From Candidatus Parcubacteria bacterium (GTDB taxonomy: Bacteria; Patescibacteriota; Patescibacteriia; CAIXNZ01), in assembly GCA_026395675.1 (NCBI GenBank), contig JAPLYF010000030.1:1-35482 (forward strand): a stretch of DNA of 35,482 nt, in the 5' to 3' direction. The position numbers and the translations under genes are program-made. Positions 4,884-28,278 of this stretch are shown here, piece after piece; within the stretch, counting starts at the first letter, position 1, and each line of letters opens with the position of its first letter. Below the pieces are notes generated by a model. That model had not been told where the DNA came from. It did not search any database and worked only from the letters and a program-made list of their open reading frames with translations.

Positions 4884-4956
4884 AGAATTTTCCTACGAAA
4901 TTACGAATAAGGTACGAATATACTAATAATCAAAATCTTTACAATTCGTATATTTG

Positions 4957-4976
4957 CCTGCCTGCCGGCAGGCAGG
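4957..4976. repeat. 20-bp perfect palindrome CCTGCCTGCCGGCAGGCAGG
   Basis: Read directly; identical copy at 14075-14094 and one-mismatch copy at 16648-16667. Confidence 0.95.
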
Positions 4977-5003
4977 TAAAAAATTCGTATTTCGTAGAGC
5001 TAT

Positions 5004-13942: not shown

Positions 13943-14074
13943 TTCAAACCTCCTTGCCATCCGAATCTTCATGCGAAAGATGGCCTTAATTTTCAAAGAT
14001 TAATTTAACTTAGCAGAAGTTTAATTATTTGTCAATGATTTTGGTTATGAGGTTACAAATCTACAGATTAGCTA

Positions 14075-14094
14075 CCTGCCTGCCGGCAGGCAGG
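14075..14094. repeat. 20-bp perfect palindrome CCTGCCTGCCGGCAGGCAGG inside an AT-rich intergenic repeat
   Basis: Identical to 4957-4976; embedded in GGTTACAAATCTACAGATTAGCTA / CTAATCTACGAAT. Confidence 0.95.
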
Positions 14095-14174
14095 CTAATC
14101 TACGAATATATCATGAATTAATTCGTATTATTCGTAATGATTTGTATATTCGTATCCCAAAATTCGTATTAATT

Positions 14175-16588: not shown

Positions 16589-16647
16589 GAATCATATTTT
16601 AGGTTATTGATAAATGAAAATTATTTGTATATTAGCGTTTGCATTCG

Positions 16648-16667
16648 CCTGCCTGCCGGCAGGCGGG
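16648..16667. repeat. Variant palindrome CCTGCCTGCCGGCAGGCGGG
   Basis: One mismatch to the 4957 and 14075 copies. Confidence 0.93.
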
Positions 16668-16692
16668 TAAATTCGTATCCCAAAATTCGTAT

Positions 16693-18774: not shown

Positions 18775-21219
18775 TTATTTTCTTATTTGCGCTCCCAGCT
18801 TATCTTCCAGAATTTTTAAAACCCCTTTATGAATCACTTGAACTTCTGCCATGGTTAAAGTTTTATCATCAGAGCGATATTCTATGCTAAAAGCAATTGA
18901 TTTTTTACCCTCTGGAATGCCTTTACCTTCAAAGACATCAAAAATTTTTACCTTTCTAATTAATTCTTTTTCTACTTCCTTGACAGCTTGTTTAACTTCT
19001 TCCCACAGAATCTTTTTAGCCACGATCATAGAAATATCCAGTTCAATGCTAGGAAATTCAGGGATTGGCTGATAAGCCATTTCATCAGTATAAACTTTGT
19101 CTAATTCAGTCAAACTAAATTCAAAAATCCCGACTTTGTTATTGATGTCTAATTTGCCATATAATTTAGGATTCAATTCTGTTACTAGTCCAATTGACTT
19201 GCCATTTAATAAAATAGCCGCTGTTTTGCCAGCACTACCCCAAACCGGCGCTGTTTTTGCTGCTTTTATCTGATAAACCAAATGTAATTTTTCAAATAAG
19301 GATTCAACAATATTTTTTGCGTTATAAAATGGCGACTGATCTTCTTTTTGGACCACCACGCCAGCAAAATGCTTTTCCTGATATGGTAAAAATCCTGGTT
19401 TTTTATCAGAGAGGCGTTCTCCTGGCTTATCTTTTAAATAAACAGAGCCGACCTCAAAGAGTTTAATTTCATTGAAAAACCTTTCATTGGCAATAATATT
19501 ATTTAGCAGATTGGGCAGTAAGGATATTCTCAAGCGCGTGGTTTCGCTGGAAAGCGGATTAGCTATTTTTATATGGCTATCAATATGCAAACCTATTTTA
19601 TGTAATTGTTCCTCGCTATTGAAAGAATAATTATAAACTTCTGACATGGCCAAGCCATAAGCTAGAATATTTTTAATTTTGCGTTCCAGTTCCCTTTCTT
19701 TATTTAATTCAGGTCTGGCCATTTTAATTTCTGGCAAATCAATTTTTAAATTGTCATAGCCATAAATGCGGGCCACTTCTTCAACTATATCCTCAGGCAG
19801 AGTAATATCCTTGGTTGCTCGCCAGCTTGGCACAAAAACTTCCAAACCTTCTCTGTTTTTTTTGACTTCAAAGCCCAAGCTTTCTAAAATTCTGATAATT
19901 TTATCCTCGGCAATTTCCTGGCCGATTTTTTTATTTATAAAATCAAAACTAATCGCGATCGGCCCTTGATTTAATTTAAATTTCTTAACATCTTCCAGAT
20001 GGGAAACAATTTTGGCGCCTGGGCAAAGCTTTAAAATTAATTCTATGGCTTTTTTAATGCCCAGTTCAGTAATATTGGGGTCCAATGATTTTTCAAATCT
20101 GATTGAGGCCTCTGATCTCAATCCTAATATTGATTCGGTCTGCCTGATTGAAATATGATTAAAATTCGCTGATTCAATAATGACTTTTTGGGTCTGGCCA
20201 TCGATTTCAGTATTAGCGCCGCCCATCACACCGGCAATGGCCACTGGTTTTTTAGCATCAGCAATCACCAGCATTTCTTCATCTAATTTCCTTTCTTGTT
20301 CATCTATGGTTTTAATTTTTTCTCCAGGATTTGCTTTTCTGACAATAATTCGATGTCCTTCTAATTTATCGTAATCAAAGGCGTGCAAGGGCTGGCCTAT
20401 CTCCATCATCACATAATTGGTAATGTCCACAATATTATTGATCGGCCGCATGCCCACTGCTTCAATCCGCTTTTTTAACCAAACCGGCGAATCTTCTGTC
20501 TTAATGCCCTCAATCACCACTCCCATGTATCTTGGGCACAAGGCAAAATCTTCAATTTTAATATCCAATTTTTCCTTGCCATCTTTAAAACTTTCAACTT
20601 TATAGACTTTTCCGCCTGAGGCGGATCCGCCTTTGGCGGACAACTTTTCGCTTAATATGGCTACCACTTCCCTGGCTACTCCATAATGCGACCACAAATC
20701 AGGGCGGTGGGTTAATGATTTATTATCAATTTCATAAATAATATCATCTAGGCCCAAGGCCTTGGCCAAAGAAGTGCCGGGCATTAATTTTTTATCTAAA
20801 ATTACAATCCCTGAATGATCTTTACCTAACCCCAATTCATCTTCAGCGCACAACATGCCCTCGGATTCCTCACCCCTCACTTTTACTTTTTCTATTTTCA
20901 TGCCATTTGGTAAAACAACACCCAAAGTTGCCACTGGAACCTTTTGCCCTTTCTCAATATTTGGCGCACCGCAAACAATACTCAATTTCTTTGCCCCAAT
21001 ATCAACAATAGCCAACTTTAATTTATCAGCATTGGGGTGCTTTTTCACTTCCAAAATTTCACCGACCACAATTCCTTTTAAACTTTCTTTTTGATCAACA
21101 AAACCCTCAACTTCAGCCATGGCCATAGTCAATTTTAAACCCAGCTCTTTAGCTGATAAAGAGTCGGGAATTTTTACAAAATCTTTTAACCAATTGCGAG
21201 AAATTAACATAGGATACAA
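18775..21219 (-). CDS. pheT: Phenylalanyl-tRNA synthetase beta subunit (start possibly ATG 21210)
   Basis: MLISRNWLKDFVKIPDSLSAKEL, tRNA-binding GEILEVKKHPNADKLKLAIVDIG, VDITNYVMMEIGQPLHAFDYDKL, C-terminal ferredoxin-fold anticodon-binding domain. Confidence 0.97.
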   Translation of the reverse strand: MYPMLISRNWLKDFVKIPDSLSAKELGLKLTMAMAEVEGFVDQKESLKGIVVGEILEVKKHPNADKLKLAIVDIGAKKLSIVCGAPNIEKGQKVPVATLGVVLPNGMKIEKVKVRGEESEGMLCAEDELGLGKDHSGIVILDKKLMPGTSLAKALGLDDIIYEIDNKSLTHRPDLWSHYGVAREVVAILSEKLSAKGGSASGGKVYKVESFKDGKEKLDIKIEDFALCPRYMGVVIEGIKTEDSPVWLKKRIEAVGMRPINNIVDITNYVMMEIGQPLHAFDYDKLEGHRIIVRKANPGEKIKTIDEQERKLDEEMLVIADAKKPVAIAGVMGGANTEIDGQTQKVIIESANFNHISIRQTESILGLRSEASIRFEKSLDPNITELGIKKAIELILKLCPGAKIVSHLEDVKKFKLNQGPIAISFDFINKKIGQEIAEDKIIRILESLGFEVKKNREGLEVFVPSWRATKDITLPEDIVEEVARIYGYDNLKIDLPEIKMARPELNKERELERKIKNILAYGLAMSEVYNYSFNSEEQLHKIGLHIDSHIKIANPLSSETTRLRISLLPNLLNNIIANERFFNEIKLFEVGSVYLKDKPGERLSDKKPGFLPYQEKHFAGVVVQKEDQSPFYNAKNIVESLFEKLHLVYQIKAAKTAPVWGSAGKTAAILLNGKSIGLVTELNPKLYGKLDINNKVGIFEFSLTELDKVYTDEMAYQPIPEFPSIELDISMIVAKKILWEEVKQAVKEVEKELIRKVKIFDVFEGKGIPEGKKSIAFSIEYRSDDKTLTMAEVQVIHKGVLKILEDKLGAQIRK
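20607..20638. repeat. Palindromic element inside pheT, 32 bp identical to the murI copy
   Basis: CTTTTCCGCCTGAGGCGGATCCGCCTTTGGCG; translated in PheT within SAKGGSASGGK. Confidence 0.93.
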
Positions 21220-23552: not shown

Positions 23553-23848
23553 TACAAAATTGTTGATCTAGGCTGGCCGCATAAGCGGTTGGCTAAGTGG
23601 GGCTAAGCATTCTTGCACGGTTCCCGGATCAACGTCGGGTTTTAGGCGGCTGGATAAAACTCCGAAATAAGGAGTGGGGCCCAAACCAGCCAAGAGTTTT
23701 GGGCGTAACAACGGAGTTTGATGCGCTACCTGATGGAGGGCTAAAAACGGTAAAATCGCGCGATCCAAATTTAGCAACCTCCCGGCCAAGCAATTGGCAA
23801 AAAACTCTCTATTCGTAATCAAAGCGGAAGTTTAACTTCCGCTTTTTT
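23553..23848 (+). ncRNA. Highly structured non-coding RNA of about 295 nt, family not identified
   Basis: Promoter upstream, terminator downstream, no credible CDS. Predicted stems: CCGC-ATAA-GCGG; GGCTGG/CCAGCC enclosing ACTCC/GGAGT; AGAGTTTT/AAAACTCT; GGAGGGCTAAA/TTTAGCAACCTCC; GCCAA-GCAA-TTGGC with GNRA-type loop. Confidence 0.72.
23822..23848. terminator. Intrinsic terminator (ncRNA 3' end; probably shared with convergent murI)
   Basis: AAGCGGAAGTTTAACTTCCGCTTTTTT. Confidence 0.9.
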
Positions 23849-24731
23849 ATTTTAATTCAATTTTTTCAAACTCAATCCCCTTGCCAAACCATTTTTCCCC
23901 CAATTCCTGATAAAGTTCTGATAAATCTGTGACAAAAAATTTAATATTGGGAACCGCCGAGGTTGTCATGGTGAGCATAGTCGAACCATCAACCGAGGCG
24001 GCTTTATCCAATTTACTTTCAATCTCATTATGTCTGGCTAAGTAATCAGCCAAGGACTCAGCCACAATTTCCCCTGAATTTAAAACTTTTGTTTGAATAC
24101 CCATAATCCCCTTAACTTCTTTTAACAAAATCGGATAATGGGTACAGCCCAAAATTAAAGTATCAACTTTAGCCAATTTCAATGGCCGCAAATAATATCG
24201 TAAAATCTTTTTGGTTTCCGGCCTATTTTCCCAGCCCTCTTCAATCAAAGGGATGAGCAAAGGACATGCTTGCTGTAAAACTTCCAATTGCGGCTTTTCC
24301 GCCTGAGGCGGATCCGCCTTTGGCGTAAACTTTTCAATTTCCCGAATATAGGCCTGGGAATTAATAGTGCCTTTGGTCCCGATTACTCCAATTTTATTTT
24401 TCGCAACCAAAACAGCTTTTTCAACTACAGGCCTAATTACTCCCAAAACTCGCCTGTCAGGATAATTTTGCAGTAACCATTCCTGCTGAATTTTCCTTAA
24501 AGCTTTAGCCGAAGCAGTATTGCAGGCAATAATTATTAACTCGCAATCCTGCTTAAATAAAAAATTAACTGCCTGCTCTGTAAATTTATAGATTACATCT
24601 TGCGAACGGTTGCCATATGGCGTCCTTGCATTGTCACCCAAGTAAATGTAATCGTATTGAGGCAGTTTTTTTACAATTTCTTTTAAAATAATCAGGCCAC
24701 CCAGGCCTGAATCAAAAATTCCTATTCTCAT
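23847..24731 (-). CDS. murI: Glutamate racemase
   Basis: RIGIFDSGLGGLIILKEI, YLGDNARTPYGNRS, IIACNTASAKALR, LILGCTHYPIL. Confidence 0.96.
   Translation of the reverse strand: MRIGIFDSGLGGLIILKEIVKKLPQYDYIYLGDNARTPYGNRSQDVIYKFTEQAVNFLFKQDCELIIIACNTASAKALRKIQQEWLLQNYPDRRVLGVIRPVVEKAVLVAKNKIGVIGTKGTINSQAYIREIEKFTPKADPPQAEKPQLEVLQQACPLLIPLIEEGWENRPETKKILRYYLRPLKLAKVDTLILGCTHYPILLKEVKGIMGIQTKVLNSGEIVAESLADYLARHNEIESKLDKAASVDGSTMLTMTTSAVPNIKFFVTDLSELYQELGEKWFGKGIEFEKIELK
24294..24325. repeat. Palindromic element inside murI, 32 bp identical to the pheT copy
   Basis: CTTTTCCGCCTGAGGCGGATCCGCCTTTGGCG; translated in MurI within TPKADPPQAEKP. Confidence 0.93.
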
Positions 24732-24740
24732 ATTTTTATT

Positions 24741-24831
24741 GGGCGAAAATATTTTGGCCAGTCGGTTAGTGTAGGGAACGGTCTAGACCGTTCCCTACGG
24801 AAGCCGGTGTTGTGCCAAAATATTTTCGCCC
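24741..24831. repeat. Nested inverted-repeat element
   Basis: Outer 18-bp perfect IR GGGCGAAAATATTTTGGC (24741-24758) / GCCAAAATATTTTCGCCC (24814-24831); inner perfect 28-bp palindrome GTAGGGAACGGTCTAGACCGTTCCCTAC (24771-24798). Confidence 0.93.
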
Positions 24832-28128: not shown

Positions 28129-28278
28129 TTGGTTACAAATCTACGAATTAGCTCCGAAGGTGCCCCTTGGGGGCTACGAATACTACTAATATCTAAAATT
28201 CAATTTAGTTAGTGGATTATTTGTAGATTCGTAGAATATCTGTCCCGAAGGGATCCCTTAGGGATAGATTCGTATCCT

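Follow-up and report, generated by a model that had tools for sequence, protein, structure and literature searches.

The double-hairpin sequence shared by pheT and murI, hereafter E, is likely a non-autonomous and scarless mobile element, possibly moved by a GIY-YIG nuclease, although the enzyme is only inferred. Mobility itself is considered very likely, no transposition having been observed. The preliminary description had proposed a selfish palindromic element surviving in coding sequence, and this claim is supported by empty sites in relatives, many copies, a patchy cross-phylum spread and conserved stems.

The pheT and murI copies

The window, i.e., the whole stretch of 35,482 nucleotides analyzed, carries two copies of E, and matches to solved structures and Pfam families show that both lie in genuine genes on the reverse strand: pheT, encoding the Phe-tRNA ligase beta subunit (18775-21219; PDB match 2rhs, E-value 1e-140; Pfam B3_4, tRNA_bind and others), and murI, encoding glutamate racemase (23847-24731; PDB match 1b73, E-value 7.7e-49; Pfam PF01177). 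An identical 32-mer, CTTTTCCGCCTGAGGCGGATCCGCCTTTGGCG, had been reported in the two genes from the sequence alone, and this held (20607-20638 in pheT and 24294-24325 in murI), with a chance expectation for a second copy of about 1e-16 at the composition of the window. These 32 bp had been taken as the unit, which is corrected here, as the natural unit comprises 30 bp (20611-20640 and 24298-24327, no strand being assigned) and consists of two 15-bp hairpins, TCCGCC-TGA-GGCGGA and TCCGCC-TTT-GGCGGA. The modules of the pheT copy (20611-20625 and 20626-20640) have perfect stems; in murI, module 1 (TCCGCCTGAGGCGGA, 24298-24312) is followed by module 2 (TCCGCCTTTGGCGTA, 24313-24327), which bears one stem mutation (GGCGTA). 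The described peptides, PKADPPQAEK in MurI and AKGGSASGGK in PheT, held as stated, and both frames used by the genes are free of stops; not all six frames are open, with frame 0 of the + strand containing a TGA that derives from the loop. The claim of shared CTTTT (left) and AACTTTT (right) flanks held only in part: the element itself begins with the final T of CTTTT, the right side is not in the same register, and the flanks mirror a TTT/AAA-like target preference (the slash marks the insertion point here and below) and not element sequence in common.

Comparisons with orthologs showed that E adds exactly 30 bp relative to 29 MurI homologs and five PheT orthologs. The search for insert-free copies suggested in the preliminary description was successful, since MurI proteins without the ten residues (about residues 135-145, FTPKADPPQAE) were found in eight same-family genomes and 21 others, two distant homologs having unrelated extra residues nearby. 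An insert falling in a conserved catalytic segment would have refuted the original proposal; the alignment with 1b73 places it before the conserved ACPLL motif and not within it. The murI insertion target (24292-24333) consists of GCGGCTTT and AACTTTTC on either side of E, read on the coding strand as GAAAAGTT, E and AAAGCCGCAA. Once joined, the flanks GAAAAGTT and AAAGCCGCAATTG encode EKLKPQL, as in relatives, and their alignment with orthologs shows this to be the ancestral form of MurI. The PheT insert, SAKGGSASGG (residues 194-203), separates the tRNA_bind domain from the B3/4 domain.

Exact insertions relative to orthologs were also observed in other genes, whose names are inferred from our own reading of the sequences: 30 bp in TyrS, TsaD (two different sites), MiaB, an MBL-fold protein and IscS, 15 bp in Cmk, and 51 bp in PpdK. 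The alignment was ambiguous at the E site of ArgS and YbaK, and in RmlB, ribosomal protein L24 and a glycosyltransferase E directly follows the start codon in an ATG/E/AAA-like arrangement. No base was duplicated and none lost at the ortholog empty sites, which rules out the target-site duplication hinted at by the AACTTT..AACTTT flanks.

Two sites are occupied in more than one genus. E is present in IscS of the window's genome (G000) and of G007, from another genus, and absent from G004 and G005; in MiaB, it is present in G000 and in G002, also from another genus, and absent from G006 and G008. Tested fellow genus members (G004 for G007; G006 and G008 for G002) thus lack E at these sites, and the loops of the same-site copies differ across genera. 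Repeated insertion, exchange and precise loss are all possible explanations. The same pattern imposes a caveat on mobility, as such copies could represent old insertions combined with repeated loss or gene exchange.

Element anatomy, insertion target and genomic context

The E module is a 15-bp hairpin with a 6-bp stem and a 3-nt loop (TCCGCC-NNN-GGCGGA), usually arranged in pairs (30 bp) and sometimes single (15 bp) or in 51-bp composites with other hairpins. G000, a fragmented assembly of 1.04 Mb in 89 contigs, harbors approximately 47 distinct copies, 23 of them dimers and some of them intergenic. The dimer junction GGCGGATCCGCC occurs 23 times in this genome versus none for the reversed control, and the monomer, allowing up to two mismatches, was detected at 95 places per strand versus 9 and 5 for the controls. 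The consensus is TCCGCC-RRA-GGCGGA followed by TCCGCC-TYY-GGCGGA, with stem variants such as TCCGCC, TCAGCC, CCAGCC, TCCCGC and TTCGCC. In the junction-anchored comparison, outer stem positions retained 1.2-2.0 bits and the first two loop positions 0.27-1.1 bits; the stems are kept and the loops drift.

The insertion target was derived from 50 dimers of other genomes and phyla, with both flanks pooled (100 flanks). T was present at position -2 in 81% and at -3 in 59%, A occurred at -1 in only 2%, and a set of 74 sites showed in addition a purine excess at -6. Because of these biases, the target is roughly symmetric, RNNTTY/RAANNY, with insertion favoring TTY/RAA. DNA hairpin loops were rejected as a general insertion target, showing no excess over control positions (p 0.2).

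Within protein-coding genes, the 15- and 30-nt inserts are open in frame, and 19 of the 23 curated coding copies use frame 0, which encodes SAxGGSAxGG (p 2e-6); the exceptions include the MurI, MBL and Hyd copies, with peptides such as PKADPPQAE and RQRRIRLGR. This bias, together with exceptions such as MurI, shows that it is the DNA that moves and that proteins filter which insertions survive. The earlier claim that nucleotide rather than protein sequence is conserved therefore held only by half, given the Ser/Ala/Gly-rich frame common to these 19 copies. The claim that the element is adapted to coding sequence is unproven, as chance together with filtering may account for a length divisible by three. 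Nevertheless, length does matter, as indicated by a sister double-hairpin family of 22 bp, which is not a multiple of three (TCCC-NNA-GGGA/TCCC-TNN-GGGA, the slash here separating the hairpins; one intergenic copy in the window at 28243-28264). This family occupies 22 places in G000, with AT-rich flanks resembling AATTTG/TAAATT, and was exclusively intergenic among the 20 copies checked: none of the 20 lay inside long ORFs, whereas 15 of the 47 copies in the 15n family did (p 0.003). The comparison is suggestive and not clean, as the sister family has a different site context.

Copies were also detected in fragments of RNA genes. Searches with a tRNA library placed E in tRNA fragments in 3/46 copies of G000, 3/23 of G007, 7/14 of G002 (three of these seven forming one tandem array) and 4/9 of G006, compared with 0/91, 2/45, 2/28 and 2/17 control positions, respectively. 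Two layouts recur. In layout A, the 5' part of an RNA gene is followed by E, a small number of additional bases, a spacer that is AT-rich and in most cases 16-25 nt long, and the intact gene, with E located in the D-loop, the anticodon loop, or the start of 5S or 16S rRNA. In layout B, the intact tRNA comes first, and after it lies a T-arm fragment whose T-loop contains E. The layouts are regular, with the E-bearing gene fragment adjoining an intact gene; where in-frame rescue is impossible, copies are thus seen only beside a restored gene.

Several individual RNA-gene loci were recorded as observations in their own right. In G002, three 68-bp units lie in tandem after an intact tRNA-Met, each consisting of a T-arm fragment whose T-loop holds E (L352, 309-580, contig C3). 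Also in G002, an intact tRNA-Arg has a tRNA fragment on either side, the 5' one carrying E in its D-loop and the 3' one in its T-loop (L347, 370-660, contig C1), an arrangement resembling a tRNA gene nested within a broken tRNA gene. Fragments of rRNA genes carrying E occur just upstream of the intact gene at a 16S start in G002 (L350, contig C1) and at 5S in G006 (L364). Outside close relatives, E was found in tRNA T-arm fragments of a distant Patescibacterium (L138, 1730) and a Margulisbacterium (L153, 3318).

Distribution, candidate enzyme and rival explanations

E monomers were detected in 45 of 59 relatives, and the dimer pattern in 36 of 390 genomes of the Patescibacteria phylum, where counts per genome lay between 0 and about 38 and the control had no hits. 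A GTDB-wide scan recovered at least Patescibacteria, Omnitrophota, Kiritimatiellae, Lentisphaerae, Elusimicrobia, Margulisbacteria and others. The distribution is thus patchy within Patescibacteria and crosses phyla; viral carriage of E was considered and rejected, as only three viral contigs contained it.

In five genomes of the family, E lies 17-50 nt upstream of a small GIY-YIG ORF in a tRNA locus, followed by an intact tRNA: Glu in G004 (L397), G007 (L346) and G002 (L348), Tyr in G005 (L398, a variant) and Asn in G008 (L399). These five cases compare with 0.02 expected (Poisson P 6e-11, based on about 61 E sites, a hand-compiled count, and 43 GIY-YIG genes in six genomes). The same order of E and then GIY-YIG was observed in other families (L386 and L390), and with related hairpins in L383 and L393. 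Because of this linkage, the small GIY-YIG nuclease is the best candidate for the enzyme, a proposal that is currently held to be less likely than not, as both activity and dependence are inferred from co-occurrence. It is possible that E and the GIY-YIG units merely share tRNA loci and that the link is indirect. In G000, the GIY-YIG units found at the tRNA-Pro, -Tyr and -Ser loci are accompanied by different hairpins (L401, L402 and L407), L392 combines such a unit and a tRNA fragment without a hairpin of this type, and all 59 relatives possess GIY-YIG genes, even the ones that lack E. Furthermore, the cross-phylum loci did not show this association: only L080 has a GIY-YIG nearby, and the only recurrent neighbors, small GIY-YIG and four-helix-bundle-like ORFs, are weak. 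No NCBIfam model reached its cut-off.

In the proposed mechanism, E would be a non-autonomous mobile element of very small size, built from 15-bp hairpins in tandem. It inserts as exactly 15, 30 or 51 bp between TTY/RAA-like half-sites without leaving a scar, and copies in genes survive by adding whole codons, mostly in the frame for flexible SAxGGSAxGG linkers; these two steps are regarded as shown. By inference, the mobility enzyme would recognize the hairpin, probably in single-stranded or cruciform form, and solo copies may be minimal derivatives moved by the GIY-YIG nuclease encoded beside E in tRNA genes. A bolder reading, which remains no more than possible, is a two-part system composed of a GIY-YIG unit and solo hairpins of 15-30 bp moved in trans into protein genes. 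The unit might enter tRNA loops with a copy of the tRNA end restoring the gene and the double hairpin at the 5' junction, and the scarless solo hairpins, with a length in multiples of three, could conceivably have spread through essential coding sequence across phyla.

Against the preferred reading of a scarless mobile double hairpin, the strongest rival, still unlikely, is that E is a REP-like element moved by a Y1 (RAYT/IS200-like) transposase, which would recognize single-strand hairpins and leave no target duplication. The lack of target duplication fits HUH chemistry, nine Y1 genes are present in the window's genome, and Y1 and E counts correlate weakly across the 59 genomes (Spearman 0.40, p 0.002). 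However, this correlation disappears outside the own family (0.22, p 0.12), and the pattern is hit 28 times in G042 and 15 times in G014, two genomes without any Y1. Moreover, Y1 genes carry their own, different hairpins (L258, L261, L262 and L050), TCCGCC-NNN-GGCGGA is absent from all 30 Y1 loci (90 kb) examined in other genomes, and the target of E is symmetric and not one-sided.

Selection for a host-functional site, such as a DNA uptake sequence, a nucleoid or repair site, or a transcription terminator, could enrich E without mobility. Conserved stems with free loops are compatible with a protein-binding site, and intergenic copies exist, but E arises by exact 15-, 30- or 51-bp insertions and not by point mutation, relatives differ in copy number between 0 and about 40, and the T-rich left and A-rich right flanks are the opposite of those expected for an intrinsic terminator, whichever strand is read, making this explanation very unlikely. 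Equally improbable is that SAxGG linkers were selected for their function in each protein. The strong Ser/Ala/Gly frame bias (19/23) and the location of inserts at variable or linker positions favor this view; however, frame 0 is not used by the MurI, MBL and Hyd copies (PKADPPQAE, RQRRIRLGR), many copies lie between genes or within fragments of RNA genes, and third codon positions are as conserved as the rest of the stem. Finally, an assembly or binning artefact might be suspected from the 89 contigs of the window's genome, but it is all but excluded, since many assemblies produced independently contain the family, with copies at orthologous sites across genera and a consistent target motif.

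Relation to known elements and other repeats

Rickettsia palindromic elements (RPEs) are palindromic selfish DNA of about 150 bp found in frame in unrelated metabolic genes of a reduced bacterial genome (PMC10969869). E likewise lies in frame within unrelated housekeeping genes, but differs in its size of 15, 30 or 51 bp (a size-based distinction, without direct comparison to RPE sequences), its tandem 15-bp hairpins, its defined symmetric target, its copies in RNA-gene fragments and its cross-phylum range. Mitochondrial double-hairpin elements, such as the Allomyces DHE and the sponge RHE, are tandem hairpins with conserved stems and variable loops, have no reported flanking duplication, and lie in genes without being removed from transcripts (PMC2800124, citing Paquin 2000). 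E shares with them the tandem hairpins, the conserved stems over variable loops and the absence of a duplicated flanking target; unlike them, it is bacterial, has another stem sequence, comes in exact multiples of 15 bp, lies in frame in essential proteins and adjoins GIY-YIG units in tRNA genes. E resembles both groups in its behavior but fully meets neither definition; its separation from DHE by descent rests on its bacterial location and not on a sequence comparison.

Other comparisons are less close. The GC42 clusters of yeast mitochondria are, like E, GC-rich hairpins in AT-rich DNA with stems far more conserved than loops, and intron-encoded endonucleases have been proposed as their helpers (PMC4478555); GC clusters have a putative AG target duplication, whereas E has none. 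REPs are short repeated palindromes in bacteria (PMC3733652), and E is similar in this respect and in the presence of Y1 genes in the same genome; however, REPs are extragenic by definition, whereas 15 of 47 E copies are in long ORFs, and E does not flank the Y1 genes examined here. Structural RNA genes of CPR bacteria contain endonuclease-coding insertions with sparse GIY-YIG among them (PMC11270868); unlike E, these are intron-like in rRNA and mostly LAGLIDADG, and the main text of that study does not mention tRNA, hairpin or palindrome. E also differs from classical MITEs in lacking a target-site duplication, and from intrinsic terminators in its T-rich left and A-rich right flanks, which leave the hairpin without a T-run after it.

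The open-access literature searched contained no account of such elements in Patescibacteria, subscription papers not being covered. In our judgment, E most plausibly represents a new form of in-gene palindromic element, differing in sequence, size and hosts, with a mechanism that is partly open. If this is true, E would be among the shortest transposing DNAs known, editing essential proteins by exactly 5, 10 or 17 residues without a scar, and the SAxGG inserts of CPR proteins would be relics of mobile DNA and not domain features. To our knowledge, no enzyme has been established for in-gene palindromic elements, whether Rickettsia RPEs or mitochondrial double-hairpin elements; this old puzzle would come within reach of test, because copies, empty sites, a target motif and a candidate nuclease linked to E are all available.

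Other repeats were observed in the same genome. A third palindrome family, CCTGCCTGCCGGCAGGCAGG, has three copies in the window (4952-4980, 14070-14098 and 16643-16671), outside long ORFs, and the middle of the 51-bp E composites of G000 resembles the core of this family. AT-rich intergenic repeats based on ATTCGTA/TACGAAT occur in the window at 4901, 7803, 10527, 14144, 16667, 21222 and 28195. The Y1 loci of G000 (L258, L261 and L262) have their own sets of flanking hairpins, resembling multiple REP/RAYT-like systems in a 1-Mb genome. Upstream of murI, the palindrome GTAGGGAACGGTCTAGACCGTTCCCTAC (24771-24798), the sole copy of its form in the genome, closely resembles the hairpin GTAGGGAACGGTTTTAAACCGTTCCCTAC, which adjoins a Y1 transposase gene in L050, and is a probable REP/RAYT element.
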